A model generated the notes under the pieces. The model was given only the letters and a program-made list of their open reading frames with translations, made no database searches and was not told the origin of the DNA. DNA of 56,167 nucleotides. It comes from Oscillospiraceae bacterium (lineage in GTDB: Bacteria; Bacillota; Clostridia; Oscillospirales; CAG-272). Position numbers and translations under genes: made by a program. Of the stretch, positions 16,994-54,102 are shown one piece after another (position 1 is the stretch's first letter; every line of letters begins with the position of its first letter). The DNA lies in assembly GCA_015064555.1 (NCBI GenBank), contig SVRZ01000015.1:1-56167 (forward strand), written 5' to 3'.

Positions 16994-19900
16994 ATGAGTG
17001 AAAACAAGCTTATCCTTTCGGGTGTATGCCCTTACTGCCCCGCGGTTCTCGATTATCCTGAGGATGCAAAGGCCGTTATGTGCCATTCCTGCGGTAACGC
17101 GGTTCCAACCTCCATTCTCAGACCGCTGAACTACGCGCAAAATAAGAATACCGCCAACGAAAAGGACAAAAGAATTGCAGACGGTGTTACGTCATCCGCT
17201 GCCGGACTCATATACTTTGATAATTTCTGCGAGAGCTATGACTGGAAGTCCTTTGCGCTCAACTCCGATCTTTCCATATCCACGCTTGATGCCATTTCAG
17301 AGGCATGCAAGATAAAGTTTTCTGCCGATCCTCTGACCTATTATCTGGATTTCAGATGCGTTGCAATTCCGATACTCAAGAAGATCGACGGTCTTGACGT
17401 TATCGAGCTTGAGATCATAGACAATTATCAGAGCGACGATATTTCCGACCTCTTCTCATACGTTGATCTCTACTCTACCATAACCCATCAGATCGTAGAA
17501 AAGAGAGATGCTCTCATCAAGACTCTTTCCACGGATATTATGCTGGCTAAGAGATTTTATGCAGATGAGCTTATCGTTGCGGATCTCGAGAAGAGCTTTG
17601 AGGTGTTCGTTGAAAAAATATCTGCTGTCAGCGCAGCATCCTCCGTAGAGGACGTTCCCGGCTACCAGAAGGCAAAGGAGCTAAAGGATGCAAGACTTGC
17701 AGAGAAGATCCGTGCAAAGGGATTTGATGCCGAAAAGACCTACAGAAAGGCTATGATACTGCTTAACGGCGGTAACGTGGATAATGCTCTGCATCTTTTC
17801 GTGGCTATAAACGGATATAAGGATTCCACCGAGCGCATTGCAGATCATTCAAGGATATTCAAGTTCAATAACGAGCTCGTCGAGATGGCAAAGCGCTACT
17901 ACTGTGTGCAGACTACCACGTCATATGACAACGTCAAGGATATGACGCTCTATTCTATTGAGAACGGTGTTCCTACCGGAGTTCCCGCGCTCACTCAGAT
18001 AACCGACGTTATACACAGCTTCGGTAACCGTATATTCTACATAAGGAACAACTCGAGCATCTGCTGCTATGACACCTCTGTCACCGATTTCCGCAGAAAC
18101 GTTAAGGTTCTTGACGAGGGTAACGTAGGCGATTACGCAATGACTTATAACGTCATTGACGGATATTCGGGTAATGCTCCCAGATACGAGGAGCTTTCCG
18201 AGATTTACGGTAAGCGTCGTCGAACACTTGATAAAACCAAGCGCTCGCTCGAAAAGCGCCTTCCTATGTTAGAAAGTTACGAGGAAGCGAAGAGTGGTAA
18301 CAGACTAGAGCTCAATGACGTTTACGAAATCGTTGAGGAATATGATGTTCCCGAAAAATACCTATTCAGAGGCTTCAAGACCAAAGAATACCGCTCTCCC
18401 GTTTACTATTCATCCGATATGTCCAAGTTCTTCATAAGGAAGAAGCTGCCGGAGGAAGAAACTGTTAAGCGCGGATGCTTTGGCAGGGAAAAGAAACCGA
18501 AAAACGTTTCCGAGGCGATCGCCAGAGGTAATAACTATTCGGTTCTTCTCGTTGATATGGACAATGCTGTGGCAAGCACCATACTGCCCGAGATAGTTGA
18601 CATTCTCTATTATCATAACGACAGAATATTCTACACCTCTGTTCCGGAGGGAAGCCGCAACTGCAATCCTTCCTTCTATATGTACGATATTGCAACCGGC
18701 AACAATACCCAGCTTCTCAACCCCGGATGCATCATCCATGAGGTCAATGACGGATACGTAATTTACTCCGTGACGATGCCTAACAAGCATAACACCAATC
18801 TCTATACTACCAATATCGAGAGTAAGACACATACACTTATAAGCGAGAACGTAAGCGGATTCTACGCAAGCTACGGTAACCGTGTCTTCTATACCGTCGG
18901 AACCGGCAAGGATGCAAGACTTTATTCTACCACGAATGACGGCAAGACCAGTGTAGAAATACTCGAGAATCCCGGAGATATAAAGGACGGAAAGTGCATC
19001 ATCCGCTCCGGTTGGCTCTATTACGTCAGCGGCGAGGGTATAAACACCTGTCTGATGAAGGTGCGCGTTACCGGATCGGAAAGAGTTCTCGTTGCATCGA
19101 GATTCTCGAATCTTGTCAAGATGGTGAACGGATATATCTTCTATATATCCACATCGGGAGATCTGCGTACCGTTCGTAGCGACGGTAACGTAGATACAAG
19201 GATCGCCTGCAACGTTGCGGGAACGCAGGTCATCATCGATGAAAACAGCGTTTACTATCTGAAGCACGACTTCGTCGGTGTTGATGATCTCCACGAAGAC
19301 GGCTTTGGTCTTTCGCTTTACAGCACCGATCATTCGGGTAAGAATCTTCGCAAGATCGCACACGACGTTATGGCTATACGCGAATATAATGACAGATACA
19401 TTTACATCCGCAAGCAGCGCCTTAACAATTATAAGATAACCACTCCCATCGACAAGAGAACTGACAGAACCGAGCTTGTTTCGATAAGCCTTACCTACTA
19501 TGAGGCATATGACAAGCAGACCAACAGCTTCACCGATATAGTTCACTTCGGCACACCCACTCCTACAAGCATTATCTACAAGAAGTCCTGGTGGCCCTTC
19601 AGCAAGAAGACAGTTACCAAGCGCGGTTCGGTTACCGAGATGCGCAGTGTCTATAAGCCTGAGAACGTTGCTGACGTTGGTATGATGCGTGATGCTACCG
19701 CGCATAAGGATGTTGATAAATGGACCCTTGATGATGCTTGGAGAGAGCTCGATATTAAGATGGCTAAGCAGCACAAGGAAGAAGAGCATACATACCTTTC
19801 ATCGAAATTAACCGATTTTGCAGTGCAGTGGGAAGCTGATAAGAAAGCACGTGAGGAAGCTCCGGAAAGAATACGCCGCGAGGCAGAGGAAGCTCAAGCA

Positions 19901-20119
19901 CGTCGTGAGGCCGAGGAAAAGGCACGCCGTGATGCGGAAGAAAAGGCACGTCGTGAGGCCAAGGCGCACGATACTGCAAAGGCTCTGGCGGACAAGATTG
20001 CCGAGATGCTGTTATCCCAGCCAAACTCCACAACAGAGAACAATAATACACAAAACACCAATACGACAGCAAATAATTCAGATTATCAGGATTTCAATTC
20101 TGACACAGATGATCTCTGA
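16994..20119 (+). CDS. Large zinc-ribbon protein with propeller-like repeats and coiled-coil tail
   Basis: A 1041-aa protein with no signal peptide, probably cytoplasmic. Residues 11-34 form a zinc ribbon (CPYC...CHSC). A helical part follows (about 50-300), including a YRKAMILLNGGNVDNALHLF repeat-like helix pair. From about 320 to 860 there are seven or more units of the type G-x-x-FY-x-x-x...L-Y-T/S, each about 40-60 residues, as in DUF5050-like beta-propellers. Residues about 945-1000 are a charged coiled coil built of AEEKARR-type heptads, and the tail is Asn/Thr-rich. The function is unknown. The layout (zinc ribbon first, effector or sensor, charged coil) parallels the TIR-MORN protein at 46.1 kb. 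Confidence 0.85.
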   Translation: MSENKLILSGVCPYCPAVLDYPEDAKAVMCHSCGNAVPTSILRPLNYAQNKNTANEKDKRIADGVTSSAAGLIYFDNFCESYDWKSFALNSDLSISTLDAISEACKIKFSADPLTYYLDFRCVAIPILKKIDGLDVIELEIIDNYQSDDISDLFSYVDLYSTITHQIVEKRDALIKTLSTDIMLAKRFYADELIVADLEKSFEVFVEKISAVSAASSVEDVPGYQKAKELKDARLAEKIRAKGFDAEKTYRKAMILLNGGNVDNALHLFVAINGYKDSTERIADHSRIFKFNNELVEMAKRYYCVQTTTSYDNVKDMTLYSIENGVPTGVPALTQITDVIHSFGNRIFYIRNNSSICCYDTSVTDFRRNVKVLDEGNVGDYAMTYNVIDGYSGNAPRYEELSEIYGKRRRTLDKTKRSLEKRLPMLESYEEAKSGNRLELNDVYEIVEEYDVPEKYLFRGFKTKEYRSPVYYSSDMSKFFIRKKLPEEETVKRGCFGREKKPKNVSEAIARGNNYSVLLVDMDNAVASTILPEIVDILYYHNDRIFYTSVPEGSRNCNPSFYMYDIATGNNTQLLNPGCIIHEVNDGYVIYSVTMPNKHNTNLYTTNIESKTHTLISENVSGFYASYGNRVFYTVGTGKDARLYSTTNDGKTSVEILENPGDIKDGKCIIRSGWLYYVSGEGINTCLMKVRVTGSERVLVASRFSNLVKMVNGYIFYISTSGDLRTVRSDGNVDTRIACNVAGTQVIIDENSVYYLKHDFVGVDDLHEDGFGLSLYSTDHSGKNLRKIAHDVMAIREYNDRYIYIRKQRLNNYKITTPIDKRTDRTELVSISLTYYEAYDKQTNSFTDIVHFGTPTPTSIIYKKSWWPFSKKTVTKRGSVTEMRSVYKPENVADVGMMRDATAHKDVDKWTLDDAWRELDIKMAKQHKEEEHTYLSSKLTDFAVQWEADKKAREEAPERIRREAEEAQARREAEEKARRDAEEKARREAKAHDTAKALADKIAEMLLSQPNSTTENNNTQNTNTTANNSDYQDFNSDTDDL

Positions 20120-43417: not shown

Positions 43418-43492
43418 TGGCACCCGCAACAGGAATCGAACCTGTAACTAACCCTTAGGAGGGGTTTATTATATCCATTTAACTATGCAGGC
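43418..43492 (-). tRNA. tRNA-Arg (anticodon CCT), CCA encoded
   Basis: 75 nt including the encoded CCA. Acceptor GCCTGCA pairs with TGCGGGT (two wobbles), discriminator G. The D stem GTTA/TAAT encloses AATGGATA. Anticodon stem AACCC/GGGTT with loop CTCCTAA, anticodon CCT. The T stem ACAGG/CCTGT encloses TTCGATT. It is the insertion target of the neighbouring island: its 3' half is repeated 1.7 kb away. Confidence 0.93.
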
Positions 43493-43650: not shown

Positions 43651-44034
43651 TTTGCTCCACCGTCGCATAGTCGTTGCGCGGCGGGGTATAACCCCTTCTT
43701 CAACTCCTTGCTTTGGGCGGTCTCACTTCAAGATTCAATTTATATTTTTGCGATTTCTCGAACTCACGGACTATATTCTAACATAAAATTCGCAAAATTG
43801 CAAGGACTTTTTGAAAAATGTAGAGATTTTGATATATTTTTATTCCGAGTGCTATTTTCGCTGCTTTCTGATATGTAAAAATCTGTGCTGAAGCATTTTG
43901 AAAAATTTAAATGCATAAGTGCGTATGCTATTGACGTTCATGGAAAAAATATAAGCAAGGCGGTGGACGATATATTATTTTCTTCACTGCAGATAATTAT
44001 TGATCATAAAACCAAAAACGGAGGTTTAATACCT

Positions 44035-44280
44035 ATGGATAAAAAGAATGAGAAGAACAAAAAGGGCGGTAATTATTCGGGTGATCCGTCAGAGATGAGA
44101 AAGGCTCCCGGATATACAGATGCAGTTCCCGGCGTTAATACGCCCGATATCGAGCTCCCCGCATTCAATCCCCCTGTACCCAACAGAGCTTGGACGGCTA
44201 TGCGCAACGGCGTTGATATCGATGCGCTTTCCGAAGAAGAAAAGCGCGACCTCTACGTAGGCAGAGATAGAATCTTCTGA
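44035..44280 (+). CDS. Small hydrophilic protein of unknown function
   Basis: An 81-aa protein, lysine-rich at the N-terminus (MDKKNEKNKKGG), then a Pro-rich centre (NTPDIELPAFNPPVPN) and a helical end (EEEKRDLYVGRDRIF). No family is recognised. I start at the ATG 10 bases behind GGAGG; the longer upstream reading frame is AT-rich and not protein-like. A perfect hairpin follows. Codon use matches the host core genes, unlike the phage remnants downstream. Confidence 0.7.
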   Translation: MDKKNEKNKKGGNYSGDPSEMRKAPGYTDAVPGVNTPDIELPAFNPPVPNRAWTAMRNGVDIDALSEEEKRDLYVGRDRIF

Positions 44281-44714: not shown

Positions 44715-45249
44715 ATGGTCAGGGCTGTGCAGCTTGATTCAAAGATAAGCAAAAGGCTTTATTCCCGTTTGGGTGAGGATGTCACAAGGCAAAAGAAATT
44801 GGTGCAGACATTGTGAAGCAATGGGATTCAACCCTTGATTCAAGAACCCGTGAAAGCCATGCAATTGTTGATGGCGAAATAAGGGAGCTTGATGGACCTT
44901 TTTCCAATGGCTTAATGTTCCCCGGTGATCCTTCTTATGGGGCTGCAGAAGTCATCAATTGCCGTTGTGCTTTGCTTCAAAGTGCAAGAAAGGCGCTTCT
45001 TGATGATGACGATGATATTGAAACGGAATATATTGGTGATGTTAGTGCAATGACCGACAAACAAAAAGAAACACTCGCAAAAAAGCTGAATGTCCTGGTT
45101 GATGAATTGGAGAAATACAGCAAGCAAATAATTCCTATCAATGCCAAAGATTATGAGATTTCAAGAAGAAATATAACGAAATCTGGAATTATGACAACAG
45201 TGACTTCAAAAAAGAGGTTGATGAACGGCTTGCAAAACGGAAAAATTAG
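44715..45249 (+). pseudogene. Decayed phage head morphogenesis gene (SPP1 gp7-like)
   Basis: Remnant of a phage minor head protein. A first frame reads MVRAVQLDSKISKRLYSRLGEDV up to about 44797. A shift then leads into the frame with KQWDSTLDSRTRESHAIVDG, MFPGDPSYGAAEVINCRCALL, the typical C-terminal block of this family with its D-x-RTR-x-x-H and N-C-R-C motifs. A second shift near 45170 leads into EIWNYDNSDFKKEVDERLAKRKN and a stop at 45249. The middle of the protein is missing as well. It is therefore non-functional. Confidence 0.8.
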
Positions 45250-45267
45250 AAATCTTCAAAGAAATCC

Positions 45268-45296
45268 TTGACAAAAAATGGGAAAAGTGATAAAAT
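45268..45296 (+). promoter_or_regulatory. Promoter of the 55-aa phage gene
   Basis: TTGACA, 17 bp, TGA-TAAAAT. Confidence 0.7.
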
Positions 45297-46026: not shown

Positions 46027-46055
46027 TTGACATTGCGGTAATCTTGTGCTATAAT
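46027..46055 (+). promoter_or_regulatory. Consensus sigma-A promoter of the TIR-MORN operon
   Basis: TTGACA, 17 bp, TATAAT with TGC before the -10. A 7-bp hairpin TTGCGCG/CGCGCAA (46076-46094) lies in the leader, upstream of the AAAGGA ribosome site. Confidence 0.85.
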
Positions 46056-46129: not shown

Positions 46130-48523
46130 ATGGAACTTAAACTTATGAGATGCCCCTCCTGCGGAGCCGAAGGAAGCATCGACAGGCGCGGAGAAAAATG
46201 GTTCTGCGCGCACTGCGGAACGAGCTTTACCGATAATAGCGCAGAAAGAGCTTTTCAGAAAATGGAGAAATGTCTTTGCGAGCGAGTTGACGGCGTTATT
46301 GACGATGCTCTTATGCGCCAAAGAGAGGAAAACTATTACAATCTGCGCTCGGCACTCTGGGAGAAGATACACGCGCCTAATATCGACAGCGCAGAGATAC
46401 TCCGTATATGCAGAAGCATCAAGGATATTGCACCCTCTGATTTCCTCGCAGATTTCTTCGAGGTTGCAAACAGTGCGCCTATTGCACAGGTCGCGGCTTA
46501 TATCGGAAGCATAAATGCCGATGAAAACGAACTTTTCGCGGATCTCATTATCGAATTTGTGATAAAGTCGCTTAAGTTTGAATATATCGCTCCACTCAAC
46601 TACTTCATCGAGCGTTCCTATAGGAATCGGGATCTTGAAAAGTTTGAGGAATACATAACAAGGCTTGAGGATGAGGCGGAAAAGGTAAGCACCGGTATAT
46701 ATGAAACTCTGATGCCGAGAGACGTTTTCCTCGCCTACTCCAGCAAGGATCTCGAAAAGGTTATGGAGATAATGCAGCTTATTGAGGAAAGCGGACTTTC
46801 CTGCTTTGCCGCATTCAGAAACCTTCAGCACGGCAGAGGCGCGGTGGCAAACTACAGCGAGGCTCTGCATGAGGCTATTGACAACTGTAAGATAGTAGTT
46901 TTCGTTTCATCGAAGAATTCGAGAAGCTTTTCCTGCGATGCATTCAAGGAGGAGCTTGCATATATACGTAAAAAGGAGCTTGCAGAGGCACCGCCTCAGT
47001 ACAGAAGCAATTATGCAAAGCTGCCGCTGAAATACAGAAAGCCGCGTATTGAGTACAGGCTCGATAACGTAAAGACTATGGCGGCGGATATGTTTATGAA
47101 GGAGTTCTTTGCCGGTCTTGATTACTGCGAAACCCAGGATAAGGTTATGGCAAGACTCGTTGAGTACATAATGGAGGCCGAGAATGCTCCCGACGAGGAG
47201 GAAGAAGCGGCAAGGCTTGAGGAGGAGGCTCGCAGAGCCGAGGCTGCAAGACTCGAGGAGGAATTCGAGCGCAGAATGCGCGAGGCCGAGAAGAAGGCAG
47301 CCGAAGGCACGGCAGAGGTTCTCAAAAAGCTCGAGGAGGCGCGTATTGCCGAGGAGGCAAGACGTAAGGAAGACGAGAAGCGACGCGCCGAAGAAGCTCG
47401 CAGAGCTGAAGAGGCTCGCAGAGCTGAAGAGGCTCGCAAGGCTGAAGAGGCGCGCAAGGCTGAAGAGGCTCGCAAAGCCGAGGAAGCAAGGCGAGCCGAG
47501 GCAAAGCGCGCTGAGAATACCGGAAGGAATTCTGCTAAAACCGAGCCTAAGGCCTCTCCTGCGCGTTCGGCAAGCACCGCCACATCACGCGCACCCCAGT
47601 CACCCGCAAGATCAAATTCGCAGATGCAGAGCCGTACCTCGGCTTATCCCTCGCGTACCCCCACATACGGCGGTCCGCGCAAGATCGAAAAGATATATCA
47701 CGACGGCGGATTTGTTTACGAGGGCGAGGTCAAGGATGGACTTATGCACGGCAAGGGCAGGCTCACCGCGCCTAACGGCGACGTTTACGACGGATATTTT
47801 GCCGACAACAAAAAGTGCGGCAGAGGTACATACAGATGGGCGAGCGGCGACGTTTACGTCGGTGACTGGCTCGAGGACAAGAAGCACGGCAAGGGTACTC
47901 TGACCTATGCCGACGGAAGAGTTTATTACGGCCCCTTCGTCAATGGGCATATGCACGGTATCGGCAGGCTGAAATTCCCTAACGGTGACGTTTACGAGGG
48001 TAGCTACGTCAACAGCGCGAGAAGCGGCAGAGGAAAGCTGACCTTTGCTGACGGAAGAATATATACGGGTGATTTTGTCAAGGGTGTACGCACCGGTAAG
48101 GGCAAGATGGTATATAAGGACGGAAGAAGCTACAGCGGTGCATTTGTGAACGGAAAGCAGCACGGCTGGGGCAGATATACCTACGCTAACGGGGATATTT
48201 ACGAGGGCTTCTTCATAAACGATCAGAAATCCGGTAAGGGCAAATTCATTTATTCCACGGGTGACGTTTATGACGGTGAGTTTGCCAAGGACTTGAAGCA
48301 CGGCAAGGGTAAGCTCATCTGGAAGAGCGGCGCGAGCTATAACGGCGAGTGGAAGAACGGAAAGAAGCACGGTCAGGGACGCTATACCTTGCCGAGCGGA
48401 AACGTTTTTTCAGGCCCCTTCTATAACGATCAGATGCACGGCACCGGCGTTATGATCTACACCAACGGAAAGCGAGAAAACGTTACCTACAGTAACGGCA
48501 GGCTCGTGACCGGTAAAAAATAA
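46130..48523 (+). CDS. Zinc ribbon-TIR-coiled coil-MORN repeat protein
   Basis: A 797-aa protein with an unusual domain order. Residues 8-29 form a zinc ribbon (CPSC...CAHC). A helical part follows (about 35-190). A TIR domain lies at about 195-335, with DVFLAYSSKD as strand A/box 1, the AAFRNLQHG loop, and SFSCDAFKEELAYI as the helix that holds the catalytic glutamate in NAD-cleaving TIR domains. Residues about 350-470 are a charged coiled coil of AEEARR heptads, then a Ser/Pro linker. From about 520 to the end lie eleven MORN repeats of 23 residues (YxGxFxxxxxHGxGxxxxxxGD) and a partial one. No signal peptide. TIR domains are frequent in anti-phage systems; the role here is unproven. Confidence 0.9.
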   Translation: MELKLMRCPSCGAEGSIDRRGEKWFCAHCGTSFTDNSAERAFQKMEKCLCERVDGVIDDALMRQREENYYNLRSALWEKIHAPNIDSAEILRICRSIKDIAPSDFLADFFEVANSAPIAQVAAYIGSINADENELFADLIIEFVIKSLKFEYIAPLNYFIERSYRNRDLEKFEEYITRLEDEAEKVSTGIYETLMPRDVFLAYSSKDLEKVMEIMQLIEESGLSCFAAFRNLQHGRGAVANYSEALHEAIDNCKIVVFVSSKNSRSFSCDAFKEELAYIRKKELAEAPPQYRSNYAKLPLKYRKPRIEYRLDNVKTMAADMFMKEFFAGLDYCETQDKVMARLVEYIMEAENAPDEEEEAARLEEEARRAEAARLEEEFERRMREAEKKAAEGTAEVLKKLEEARIAEEARRKEDEKRRAEEARRAEEARRAEEARKAEEARKAEEARKAEEARRAEAKRAENTGRNSAKTEPKASPARSASTATSRAPQSPARSNSQMQSRTSAYPSRTPTYGGPRKIEKIYHDGGFVYEGEVKDGLMHGKGRLTAPNGDVYDGYFADNKKCGRGTYRWASGDVYVGDWLEDKKHGKGTLTYADGRVYYGPFVNGHMHGIGRLKFPNGDVYEGSYVNSARSGRGKLTFADGRIYTGDFVKGVRTGKGKMVYKDGRSYSGAFVNGKQHGWGRYTYANGDIYEGFFINDQKSGKGKFIYSTGDVYDGEFAKDLKHGKGKLIWKSGASYNGEWKNGKKHGQGRYTLPSGNVFSGPFYNDQMHGTGVMIYTNGKRENVTYSNGRLVTGKK

Positions 48524-48549: not shown

Positions 48550-50019
48550 ATGAAAAGATTAGACACACACAGGATATCAAAATATCTGCACGGTACCTTC
48601 GGCGAGTTTTTCGGAAGCACCACCTATGACGGGCTGTGGGTTGGAAAGGACAGCGATATCCCGAATGTGGGCGGCATCCGTCTTGACGTTATAGAAGGCA
48701 TACGCGAGTGCGGACTTACCGTTTTTCGCTGGCCGGGCGGCTGCTGTGCCGAGAAGTATCATTGGATGGACGGCATAGGTCCGAACCGTATGCCCAGGAT
48801 GCACTTCCAGCGCGATAACAATCACGGGATCTGGGATATGTCCTTCGGAACGGATGAATTTATGGAGCTTTGCAGGCTCTGTGATATGGAGCCGATGATC
48901 GTCGCAAACGTATCCACGGGTACTGTGGCTGAATTCCGCGACTGGTATGAATACTGCAACGCGCCCGCAACGACAAAATTCGGAGCGATGCGCGCGGCAA
49001 ACGGCCATCCCGAGCCGTATAACGTTAAGTTCTTCGGCATCGGCAACACCGATGAAAATGCCTGGAAGGCGGCGTTCATACCCGAGGCGTATGCCATAGA
49101 TTACGTGCGCTTCGTTTCTGCGCTTGACGGCAGTCTCAATGCCTCGCAGGATCCCGATATGCCTGACGGATGCGTTATCGTCGGACTTGGATTAAGTATA
49201 AGACACGGTCATCACGATTGGCCAAAGCGCGTTATGGATCTTGTGACCTGTAACGGCACTATGAAGGGACCGGATATGCTTTCGGTTCATCATTACCTCG
49301 GCTCTATGAAGAATAAAAAATGCGGCGATGCGGTGGATTATACCGATGAAGAATACTATTATCTTCTTGACAGTCTGCCAAAGTATGAGGAGGATATAGC
49401 CTTCCACCGTACTGTCATAAACGAGCACGCCTGCAAACGCAAACCTACATATATCTCATTTGACGAATGGGGAACCTGGCACGACGAGGATGACGTTGTG
49501 CGTGAAACACATCAGAGGCAAACGGTGAGAGATGCGATCTTTGCCGCAATGGCTCTGCATATCTTCTACCGTAATTCGGACGTTGTTAAGATGGCTATGC
49601 AAACGCAGATATGCAACCTCAACGAGAGCCTTTTCGATACCGACGGCAAAAACTTCCTGAAGACTCCCACCTTCTACGTTATGAAGCTCTTCCGCGATCA
49701 TCTCAATCAGTATCTTCTCGACGCGGCATTCAATGCCGATAGCACAGTTGATGCTCTCGCATCGGTAAGCGAGGACGGATGCCGCGTTACCGTAACTGCC
49801 GCAAATCGCGATCTTTACCGCGAGGCATGCCTCACGCTCTGCGACGAGCTTTCCGGAATGAAGATCGTGCGTGCCGATATCGTTACGGCAGATGACGTCA
49901 GAGCGGTTAACACCTACGCAGAGCCCGAGCTTGTGCGCGATCTCCCCTTTGAGGCGACTTTGCCGAAGGTCACTCTTCCCCCTCACTCGGTCGTAAGAAT
50001 AGTGCTCGAAAAGCAATAA
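48550..50019 (+). CDS. GH51-like alpha-L-arabinofuranosidase with altered acid/base site
   Basis: A 489-aa protein of glycoside hydrolase family 51, without a signal peptide as is usual for this family. The TIM-barrel segments HGTFGEFFG, VFRWPGGCCAEKYHW, and SVHHY match. The nucleophile motif ISFDEWGTW is intact (Glu306). The acid/base motif, normally G-L-G-N-E, reads GIGNTDENAW, so Thr167 stands at the acid/base place, with Asp168 and Glu169 next to it. Activity may be lost, shifted or changed. It begins 26 bp behind the TIR-MORN gene with a GGAGGG site, so the two probably share a message. A two-way terminator follows. Confidence 0.88.
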   Translation: MKRLDTHRISKYLHGTFGEFFGSTTYDGLWVGKDSDIPNVGGIRLDVIEGIRECGLTVFRWPGGCCAEKYHWMDGIGPNRMPRMHFQRDNNHGIWDMSFGTDEFMELCRLCDMEPMIVANVSTGTVAEFRDWYEYCNAPATTKFGAMRAANGHPEPYNVKFFGIGNTDENAWKAAFIPEAYAIDYVRFVSALDGSLNASQDPDMPDGCVIVGLGLSIRHGHHDWPKRVMDLVTCNGTMKGPDMLSVHHYLGSMKNKKCGDAVDYTDEEYYYLLDSLPKYEEDIAFHRTVINEHACKRKPTYISFDEWGTWHDEDDVVRETHQRQTVRDAIFAAMALHIFYRNSDVVKMAMQTQICNLNESLFDTDGKNFLKTPTFYVMKLFRDHLNQYLLDAAFNADSTVDALASVSEDGCRVTVTAANRDLYREACLTLCDELSGMKIVRADIVTADDVRAVNTYAEPELVRDLPFEATLPKVTLPPHSVVRIVLEKQ

Positions 50020-51693: not shown

Positions 51694-54102
51694 TCATTCC
51701 TCGCCGCAAACGCAAATTGCCGGCTGACCAAACAGACCGCGAATGAAGTTGATTATCATATTCACAAGCTTACGGAAGAATCCTGCATTTTCCTCGCATT
51801 TACTGTGATCCTTGGTTACGGTATCATCGTCGGGAGTATCCGGAGTATCCGGAGTGTCCGGAGTATCCGGAGTGTCGGGAGTGTCGGGAGTATCGGGAGT
51901 ATCCGGAGTATCGGGAGTATCGGGAGTGTCGGGAGTATCGGGAGTGTCCGGAGTGTCCGGAGTATCGGGAGTGTCCGGAGTGTCGGGAGTGTCGGGAACC
52001 TCCTCCGACTCAGCATATATAACCATATCGTATGCACGGCACTGACTGGTGAGGGTTGTATAAGTAACAGAATCGACCGCCTCGTCAAATACAATTGTAA
52101 CGATACCGTTATTGTTTGTTACGGTAGTACCTTCGGGTGCTGTTTCAATCCATCCTTTAACGTATTTATCATCAAGATTCTGGCAATTGATCTCGATCTT
52201 GGTCATGCCGGGATAAGCGATAGTAACATTAGAGCCCTTATAGAAGCGAGCTGGATTCTTATAATCTGCTACGTCGCTCTGCGAGCTTGCCTTATCGTTG
52301 GTAACGGTAATACCGTTCTGTACCCAAACCTGCTGAGAGGTATTAAATACCGTACGGTTGTCTACGTTATCGAATGTAATGGTAACGGTACCTGAGCTCT
52401 TGGTTGCTCCGCAAACAGTGCATTTATCGTTTACGTAATTGTGTCCCGTTGCGGCAACCTTGTCACCTGTGTAGCTATGCTTGCAAAGCGAACAGGTGTA
52501 GGTGGTATAACCTTCCTTGGTGCAGGTAGGAGCGGTTACGACCGATGTGTAATTATGCTCGCAGGAGGTATCGGGAGTCTCCTCATCACCATCAAACACA
52601 TACATGCGGGCAACGTAATCGGTATCCTTGTATTGGGAGGAACGAAGCACACCGACGGTTACATACTGAGCATACGTACCCATATAGCAGGTTTCACCGG
52701 AAACTTCGGTTTTGAATGCACTCTTTGCGGTATCCCAGGTGAATACCGAGGTAGCGGTAGCTGCATAGGTAAAGTTGTAATGCGTGCCGCTTGTAACGAG
52801 ATTAATATACTGCTTCTGTCCGCTGCTGTTATTGAAATAGAGGTGATAGCCTCCACTGACAGCCTCTGCGTATACGTCAACACCGTTTGCATAAGCAGTA
52901 TCGGTTGCACCGTAATAGCCGTTCATCGTACCGTTAAAGTAATACTCGGTGCCCTTCTGGCTGGAATAAAGACCGAGCTTATAGGGTACGCCTGCTGTTA
53001 CACTGGTTACGTAGGTAGGCTTTGCAGGCTCAAGGACCTCTGCCTCACCGCATACAGAACAAACGCCTGCACTATAGTTATGACCGGTCGCGTTAACTAT
53101 ATCAGTCTTGTAGCTGTAGCCGCATCCGGAGGTCTGACAGGTATAGAGAGTATATCCGTTTTTCTCGCATTCGGGAGCAACGACAATACCCGAATCAAAA
53201 TTATTATGATCGCACTTGCTGGCTGCATATCCGGAGGGGGTGGTCATTTCGGGAACCTCTTCACCGAAGAGAATGAATGCAAGCTCGGGATAGTCAACGA
53301 ATACGTTACGTGTACCGGTTATCGATTCTACGGAATCGTTACGGCCAAGCTCCCAGGTATCAACAGGATCTGCTTCCATCCATTCAAGAAGAACGGCCTT
53401 GCTCTCCATTACTCCGCCGGAGCCCCATGCATAGCTGGTATTTCCCCAACGAACGTAAACGTAAAGGAAGATACGTGCAACGTCACCGCGAAGATCATAC
53501 TTACCGTTCGACTCACCGTTAGGATTATAATATCCGCTGCTCTTGCCGTATGCGGTATTTCCTCTGGAGGAATTTTCGCTGCTAGAGGTAGGACGGAGCA
53601 TCATGATATCGTTTTCATCACTTCCGCCAAGCCCCTTACTGTTAGGCCAGGTATGCTCACGGTTCCAGTTACCTTCACCCCATGCGGGTCCTATTGCATT
53701 GCCCGAATAGAAGGAGGAGATTTTTCCGCCGTTATTCTGACAATCGGTATACTGGTAAAGGCTCTTGGTTGCGTCATAGCTGGTTATATAGCTATGGTTA
53801 GACGTCATCAGAGTCTTTAAGGTCTTATACAGCTCGCTCTTGGGAACATCCGAAGTGTTCGTGCTTCCGGCATAAGCGGCAAGATCACTGTATGAAACAT
53901 TGTTGTCATCATAGAATTTCTCGGCATTCGGGGACATAAAGGTCGCCGTAGTACCGCGCGTACCCCAGTTGTATATGTATTCTCCACTATACACATACGA
54001 TACGTCGGCAGCACTGACACCAACACCTGCCGCGAGCAGCATGGATATACTTAACACCATTACGAGAAGTAACGCCAGACTGCGCTTTGTCAATTTGTTC
54101 AT
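51694..54102 (-). CDS. Secreted endonuclease I with Cys-rich repeats and Pro-Asp-Thr linker
   Basis: An 802-aa exported nuclease. Residues 1-31 are a signal peptide ending VSAAD. The endonuclease I domain (about 40-285) contains the active-site block WNREHTWPNSKG (about 146-157) and NDIMMLRPTSSSENSSRGN, with the catalytic histidine, asparagine and arginine of the family. Two Cys-rich units follow (about 295-350 and 515-565, H/C-x-x-C...GHNY...C-x-x-C), flanked by beta-rich segments. Then come about eighteen Pro-Asp-Thr repeats and a tail with FFRKLVNMIINFIRGLFG, a common C-terminal amphipathic segment in Clostridia surface proteins. It probably degrades extracellular DNA for nutrition or defence of the niche. 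Confidence 0.88.
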   Translation of the reverse strand: MNKLTKRSLALLLVMVLSISMLLAAGVGVSAADVSYVYSGEYIYNWGTRGTTATFMSPNAEKFYDDNNVSYSDLAAYAGSTNTSDVPKSELYKTLKTLMTSNHSYITSYDATKSLYQYTDCQNNGGKISSFYSGNAIGPAWGEGNWNREHTWPNSKGLGGSDENDIMMLRPTSSSENSSRGNTAYGKSSGYYNPNGESNGKYDLRGDVARIFLYVYVRWGNTSYAWGSGGVMESKAVLLEWMEADPVDTWELGRNDSVESITGTRNVFVDYPELAFILFGEEVPEMTTPSGYAASKCDHNNFDSGIVVAPECEKNGYTLYTCQTSGCGYSYKTDIVNATGHNYSAGVCSVCGEAEVLEPAKPTYVTSVTAGVPYKLGLYSSQKGTEYYFNGTMNGYYGATDTAYANGVDVYAEAVSGGYHLYFNNSSGQKQYINLVTSGTHYNFTYAATATSVFTWDTAKSAFKTEVSGETCYMGTYAQYVTVGVLRSSQYKDTDYVARMYVFDGDEETPDTSCEHNYTSVVTAPTCTKEGYTTYTCSLCKHSYTGDKVAATGHNYVNDKCTVCGATKSSGTVTITFDNVDNRTVFNTSQQVWVQNGITVTNDKASSQSDVADYKNPARFYKGSNVTIAYPGMTKIEINCQNLDDKYVKGWIETAPEGTTVTNNNGIVTIVFDEAVDSVTYTTLTSQCRAYDMVIYAESEEVPDTPDTPDTPDTPDTPDTPDTPDTPDTPDTPDTPDTPDTPDTPDTPDTPDTPDTPDDDTVTKDHSKCEENAGFFRKLVNMIINFIRGLFGQPAICVCGEE
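51829..52000 (-). repeat. 9-bp tandem repeat encoding Pro-Asp-Thr
   Basis: About eighteen copies of a 9-bp unit (variants of GTATCCGGA and GTGTCGGGA on the plus strand), in frame in the nuclease gene as PDT-PDT. Such tracts can vary in length by slippage. The antisense reading is Gly-Val-Ser repeats, which are not real. Confidence 0.88.

Follow-up and report, generated by a model that had tools for sequence, protein, structure and literature searches.

A zinc ribbon-TIR-MORN protein of an Oscillospiraceae genome is one member of a TIR family with differing tails

What a bacterial protein that unites a zinc ribbon, a TIR domain and MORN repeats might do, and whether this union is its most telling feature, is the question raised by a gene in the window (the whole stretch of DNA analysed, 56,167 nucleotides of an Oscillospiraceae bacterium, contig SVRZ01000015.1). 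The gene, at 46130-48523 on the forward strand, is a single open frame of 797 aa. Pfam matches and the sequence give the order zinc ribbon, helical region, TIR, charged helix and 11 MORN repeats (Table 1), which confirms that ribbon, TIR_2 domain and MORN repeats stand in one protein, as an earlier note on this DNA had read it. The noteworthy part, in our view, is the tail-changing TIR family to which the protein belongs, rather than the MORN combination.

Table 1 Features of the window gene and its upstream region.
Feature	Position in window	Strand	Basis
Consensus promoter, TTGACA-N17-TATAAT	46027..46055	+	Exact match; one of seven in window
Whole gene, 797 aa	46130..48523	+	Open frame, Pfam
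Zinc ribbon, residues 6-34 (C8, C11, C26, C29)	46145..46231	+	Conserved Cys; Pfam below cut-off
Helical region, residues 35-190, family-conserved	46232..46699	+	Alignment; low-confidence model
TIR and conserved stretch after it, residues 197-345	46718..47164	+	TIR_2 match 199-280
E275 codon, candidate catalytic glutamate	46952..46954	+	Glu in 40/40 rows with residue
Charged helix, residues 350-465, EEARKA period six	47177..47524	+	Periodicity
18-bp DNA tandem repeat inside charged helix, 4.9 copies, 91% matches	47390..47478	+	Repeat search
Ser/Pro/Arg-rich low-complexity linker, residues 466-525	47525..47704	+	By eye
11 MORN repeats, residues 530-782, 23-residue spacing	47717..48475	+	Pfam, periodicity

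The MORN family (PF02493) matched in 11 stretches of canonical 23-residue units (E 9.5e-63), and TIR_2 (PF13676) matched residues 199-280 with an E of 2.4e-6, at 28.5 bits against a curated cut-off of 28. Trimmed family members gave TIR_2 in 11/11 cases at E<=0.1 and in 22/22 at E<=0.01; in full-length Pfam scans the match fell under the cut-off in both L020 genes, L023, L094 and L096, and L021 yielded no TIR_2 line at E<=1e-4. The N terminus, with its CxxC...CxxC ribbon at residues 8-29, is matched by Pfam zinc-ribbon families below their own cut-offs and by none above, and the four cysteines are kept in 39/39, 39/39, 39/40 and 40/40 of the relatives with a residue at the position. Between ribbon and TIR, Pfam recognises no family at residues 35-190. 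A structure model built from two sequences places helices there with low confidence (mean pLDDT 49.6 overall; blocks of 51-82 over residues 31-150, lower beyond, and 27-46 in the TIR blocks).

Behind the TIR part, the 116 residues of segment 350-465 comprise 37 E, 30 A, 22 R and 10 K. Identity of this segment with itself is 0.45 at lag 6 vs 0.26 at lag 7, and over 59 residues in a row it has none of V, I, L, M, F, Y and W. The period of six together with the hydrophobic-free stretch indicates a charged helix, not the heptad coil that had been proposed to cluster the TIR domains.

The first ~345 residues of the window protein form a module that seven local genes share. A genome search with residues 1-351 as query returned seven places, at which the six other genes share 48-60% identity with the window copy over about 345 residues; the module match contains 0 stops in all seven. 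The tails behind it differ. Pfam assigns MORN repeats to three copies (the window copy and those on C14 and C20), LRR_5 to two tandem genes on C18 and DUF6273 to the copy on C22, and the C42 copy ends in a membrane segment recognised by eye. Recurrence of the module, together with the purifying selection described below, argues that the window architecture is not a chance one. Since MORN is only one among several tails, and sister copies bear others, the membrane or lipid placement that had been ascribed to the MORN repeats is not a general rule for these proteins.

The longest stretches of DNA identical between the window copy and the two C18 LRR copies measure 25 and 26 bp and lie in the low-complexity charged-helix repeat, which is a weak hint of exchange only. 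A MORN-only protein is encoded in another species of the window's genus (L106:1117-2784, minus strand); it shows 42% identity over 256 residues. The window protein, with its 11 canonical 23-residue units, is like other MORN-repeat proteins, and the L106 protein differs in that no TIR module was seen in it. The three local MORN blocks are no closer to one another than to this L106 protein, which lends no support to a recent exchange of such blocks among these copies.

We searched for the module at increasing distance from the window's genome. With an eight-module profile (E<=1e-15) it was absent from the other 68 genomes of the genus and the other 393 of the order, the single match in each set (1/69 and 1/394) being the window's own genome. 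With an eleven-module profile (E<=1e-12), again only the window's own genome matched in a class sample (1/391) and a phylum sample (1/398), for which 391 and 398 genomes were drawn from larger groups; the genus, order, class and phylum sets overlap. With the threshold relaxed to E<=1e-3, a search of 59 genomes yielded, apart from the own genome, nothing but partial matches, which covered either the zinc ribbon or the TIR part. Viral contigs, phages and plasmids yielded no relative of the module at the sensitivities used. Scanning contigs with six exact 8-residue peptides matched one relative among 129 stretches, a count that understates the distribution because exact peptides were demanded.

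Another family provided the relatives. The named relative L018 comes from a sheep-colon Clostridia MAG (genome G458) with four copies; in its genus 1/15 genomes matched, G458 itself, and in its family, which is not that of the window, 41/301 genomes matched at E<=1e-5. The best match reached E<=1e-20 in 17/301 genomes and extended well past the TIR alone. Among these 17, G1307 matches the zinc-ribbon/helical part only, with no TIR, and G1418 and G1398 match without the zinc-ribbon part; in the other 24 of the 41 genomes the matches were weaker and shorter, with the TIR part as the usual target and the zinc-ribbon end in a few cases. Up to six copies occur in one genome of this family (G1500, which also holds a fragment). 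Checking this and other genomes for the domain order described in the earlier note recovered the module, in six further local genes and in 17/301 genomes of another family (one without TIR), and with it tails that vary. Flanks on the five other contigs of the window's genome resemble the window in tetranucleotide usage (r 0.83-0.88, vs 0.57-0.66 to G458); this likeness makes a binning error unlikely, and a binning artefact was rejected on its account.

To survey the tails we gathered 43 proteins from fetched flanks. Leucine-rich repeats follow the module in 20 (14 by Pfam LRR_5; L072, L074, L077, L085, L089 and L093 by eye), membrane segments in 6 (TM2 in L081 by Pfam; L022, L070, L071, L092 and L099 by eye), MORN in 4, Sel1 in 4, one of them also with LRR_5, and DUF6273 in 3 (2 by Pfam; L076, which is cut, by eye). 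One tail is a second TIR, one is UvrD, and four members are short or cut (L037, one L083 gene, L086 and L098). The junction of module and tail is often a charged helix. Most of these tails, namely BspA leucine-rich repeats, MORN, DUF6273, Sel1 and membrane segments, appear from their sequences to be of a binding or anchoring type; some, the UvrD and second-TIR tails, are by the same reading not recognition repeats. PMC10743442 reports a C-type-lectin-like model for DUF6273 and its hypermutation in receptor-binding proteins of phages, which favours recognition by the DUF6273 tail.

The module itself is at times incomplete. TIR is missing from L093 and L097, which keep the ribbon and the helical part, no zinc ribbon was seen in L095, L096 carries a different Cys cluster (by eye), and the start of the second L083 gene is called after the ribbon. 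Several single members are worth recording: L090:6378-7907 (minus strand) joins the TIR module to the second TIR domain at its C terminus; L088:3-1880 (minus strand) fuses it to the N-terminus of a UvrD helicase and ends at the contig edge; and L078:7113-12596 (plus strand) encodes a member of 1828 aa with six DUF6273 stretches. Four members (L022, L035, L072 and L099) have a leucine-rich segment standing by itself at a distance of 54-330 bp, positioned as tail cassettes would be. A lone leucine-rich-repeat gene, L022:10570-11178 (minus strand), stands 138 bp from the membrane-tailed copy on C42.

A tree of 39 modules, with four partial rows excluded, groups the seven local copies into one clade (99/97), and likewise the five copies of G1256 (100/99), whose tails are three LRR, one DUF6273 and one TM2. 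The copies of G1500, of G458, of G1387 and of G1462 do not form one clade each, and G1387 and G1462 share pairs; in-genome clades with differing tails are, as far as this tree indicates, not general across genomes. The minimum number of tail changes is 16 over 37 rows, with tail labels of our own, and within the local clade three tail replacements suffice by hand count if MORN is ancestral. Over the module, dN/dS is 0.055-0.133 in 9/10 gene pairs, some of them with high dS, indicative of purifying selection. Synonymous sites are saturated in the tenth pair, the window copy vs C22, so the copies are not recent. The seven may have multiplied locally, or an unsampled donor may have supplied them together.

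The explanation that fits best, at a rough probability of 0.42, is a TIR effector that works on its own and whose tails, for recognition or anchoring, are exchangeable. In its favour are the conserved module, the many tails of binding or anchoring type, the in-genome expansion with changing tails, the purifying selection and the invariant glutamate E275. Members would be cytosolic, single-gene proteins, to judge by sequence, made of a conserved zinc ribbon/helical/TIR module and an exchangeable tail. The tail would bind a ligand that serves as cue, or would anchor the protein, and so bring TIR modules together; the resulting oligomers would use E275 to act on NAD or a similar nucleotide, possibly with an immune or stress output. 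For the window copy, the MORN tail would be the binding or anchoring part.

We examined the neighbouring genes for signs of such an output. By-eye reading of the flanks of all seven local copies turned up no defence gene, and the PADLOC neighbour scan covered 10 chosen genes, all outside the window's genome; this speaks neither for nor against a defence role. Leucine-rich-repeat genes recur near the local copies at three places and AraC-like regulators (a by-eye label) at two. Near members elsewhere, a protein with DUF4062 and NPHP3_N and no PADLOC match (L092:2244-6563, minus strand) lies about 360 bp from a TIR module gene, and a protein in which one part resembles a type I specificity protein is encoded two genes away from the member L098.

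The other family offers a recurrent neighbour, which bears on a second explanation: that the TIR protein is an adaptor in a membrane- or envelope-stress module, serving membrane remodelling or the quality control of proteins, and not primarily immunity, as a partner of MIT-like AAA (Vps4-like), coiled-coil and SPFH proteins. In 6 genomes, genes of a cluster of coiled-coil proteins and AAA ATPases with an MIT-like front, the latter being our reading, with no Pfam match, are found no more than 8 kb from a member. The AAA protein has a full-length relative (E<=1e-70, alignment beginning at residue 1-7) in 9/18 holders of the module vs 0/18 controls, with a one-sided Fisher p of 5e-4 that overstates independence, as the genomes are related. 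The holders include G1307, whose member has no TIR, and G000 from a different family (9/17 without G000), and the controls are 18 of 20 negatives listed out of 260, the 24 weaker-match genomes being left out. The member L037 sits in a row (L037:3616-18001) comprising a P-type ATPase, four TerD, the TIR module protein, two AAA ATPases (Vps4_C matches the one below cut-off, and the other has an MIT-like front by eye), trypsin-like and Band_7 proteins with zinc ribbons, and coiled-coil proteins, a layout that resembles an ESCRT/Ter-type membrane system. In 3 genomes members have Band_7 or SPFH-like genes close by (by Pfam in two). However, the window's own genome, 82% complete, holds no such AAA relative (best match 2.4e-19, within the control range) and no TerD. 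TerD, present in 2/18 holders and 0/18 controls (p 0.24), was rejected as a general partner. Moreover, in PADLOC the MIT-like AAA protein matches IetA, a defence ATPase (E 5.9e-40), so its presence is compatible with defence as well. Taken with these points, we consider the membrane-stress explanation unlikely.

The motif of TIR NADases comprises a glutamate in the helix after the box-3-side strand and the aromatic residue of WxxxE. The glutamate singled out in the earlier note is E275, and it is Glu in 40/40 rows of the family alignment with a residue there, as D207, E219, C225, G235, S260, S264 and R265 are likewise invariant in 40/40. The aromatic position, residue 271, four before E275, is Ala in 38/40. 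When generic TIR frames were aligned to the family profile, 6/18 reached the helix and 12/18 stopped short; all of the former (6/6) have Glu in the E275 column, which is the expected Glu in 4 (HVxxE, WVxxE and CRKE contexts) and a Glu two residues further in 2. For L037, the member in a ter operon, a gap of one residue is needed to align the glutamate. The probable active-site Glu is thus retained and its usual aromatic neighbour not, and given the Ala at the WxxxE aromatic and the L037 gap, activity may be absent in some or all members.

The Ala in place of the aromatic residue speaks for a third explanation, in which the TIR is a homotypic interaction domain with a structural E275, and tail and helix assemble or recruit proteins as a non-catalytic scaffold. 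Repeat tails are typical interaction domains. Among the PDB profile matches, all weak, Toll-receptor-related 2 is best (E 3.5e-5), the others being TIRAP, MyD88, Roq1 and 8btn, so that the adaptors TIRAP and MyD88 are represented. Yet E275 and its surroundings stay invariant across strongly diverged members, probably beyond the need of a bare scaffold, and we hold this explanation, too, to be improbable. Least credible, and in our estimate very unlikely, is an ordinary mobile or drifting multigene family that owes its spread to transfer and repeat slippage and has no settled function, for which the patchy distribution (the own genome alone in genus and order), the slippage-prone 18-bp repeats, a serine-type integrase alongside L036 and phage-family matches alongside L035 would speak, but against which stand the purifying selection in 9/10 pairs, the stop-free modules of all seven local copies and the lack of relatives among the phages, plasmids and viral contigs searched.

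How does a TIR effector with exchangeable tails compare with described systems? In PADLOC, ThsB matches the TIR part weakly (E at best 1.8e-5 with the whole protein and 3.2e-6 with its first 373 residues), a profile resemblance to Thoeris. To our knowledge, ThsB has no MORN, LRR or zinc-ribbon parts, and by-eye inspection of the listed flanks of members showed no ThsA-like partner. Prokaryotic TIR_2 (PF13676) proteins, including the TIR-TPR proteins treated in the survey PMC7075850, are alike in joining TIR and repeats in one protein and in the glutamate in the expected helix; the window family differs by a fixed zinc ribbon and helical domain before the TIR, by Ala in place of the WxxxE aromatic and by a tail type that varies within a genome. 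The words MORN, Sel1 and zinc are absent from the main text of that survey, as far as it was accessible. The Swarozyc/DUF4062 proteins, reported as TIR-like antiphage NADases in PMC13174449 (a preprint), likewise combine a TIR-like and an auxiliary domain in one protein and are patchily distributed; the window protein, in contrast, matches TIR_2 and not DUF4062, and among the members examined a DUF4062 gene adjoins L092 only. In the literature searched, mostly papers open without subscription, we found no description of TIR with MORN in bacteria or of the present architecture. The impression of an unfamiliar arrangement in the earlier note therefore holds for TIR with MORN, with the qualification that MORN is merely one tail of a shared module.

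Plant TIR-NLR and animal TLR proteins offer the closest parallel in plan: TIR with leucine-rich repeats in many members, and paralogue expansion with changing recognition parts. The repeats of the window family are BspA-type, and we claim no descent. NACHT, NB-ARC and STAND domains are absent from the 31/43 members that were Pfam-scanned at full length. A bolder form of the favoured reading would make the family a counterpart of such receptor repertoires, with one TIR module multiplied within genomes and its tails (Sel1, MORN, C-lectin-like DUF6273 and BspA leucine-rich repeats) repeatedly replaced, giving strain-specific cytosolic sensors without an NLR-type ATPase and, in part, with an MIT-like AAA membrane-remodelling partner; this we regard as doubtful, if worth stating. 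Should the tails recognise, TIR sensors would be diversified by tail exchange within a genome, like plant TIR-NLR minus the nucleotide-switch ATPase. The family would then be a compact system for wiring one TIR module to unrelated sensing repeats, and a way to ask what MORN and BspA repeats detect inside bacteria.

The surroundings of the window gene are less distinctive than they had seemed. Its upstream promoter does match the consensus exactly, but the window holds seven such matches and this one is not special. Instead of a tRNA island, the window has one tRNA, at 43418-43492. The suspected prophage relic comes down to a phage head-morphogenesis fragment at 44813-45271 (plus strand), which stands, whereas the ORF at 43885-44280 has no PHROG match. 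An arabinofuranosidase-like gene, as we take it to be, begins 26 bp past the TIR gene on the same strand (48550-50019). Further on, the gene at 51694-54102 (minus strand) presumably encodes a secreted nuclease-like protein, with a long DTP repeat seen by eye. At 16994-20119 (plus strand) the window also encodes a 1041-aa zinc-ribbon protein that by eye has a similar charged stretch close to its end and no TIR.
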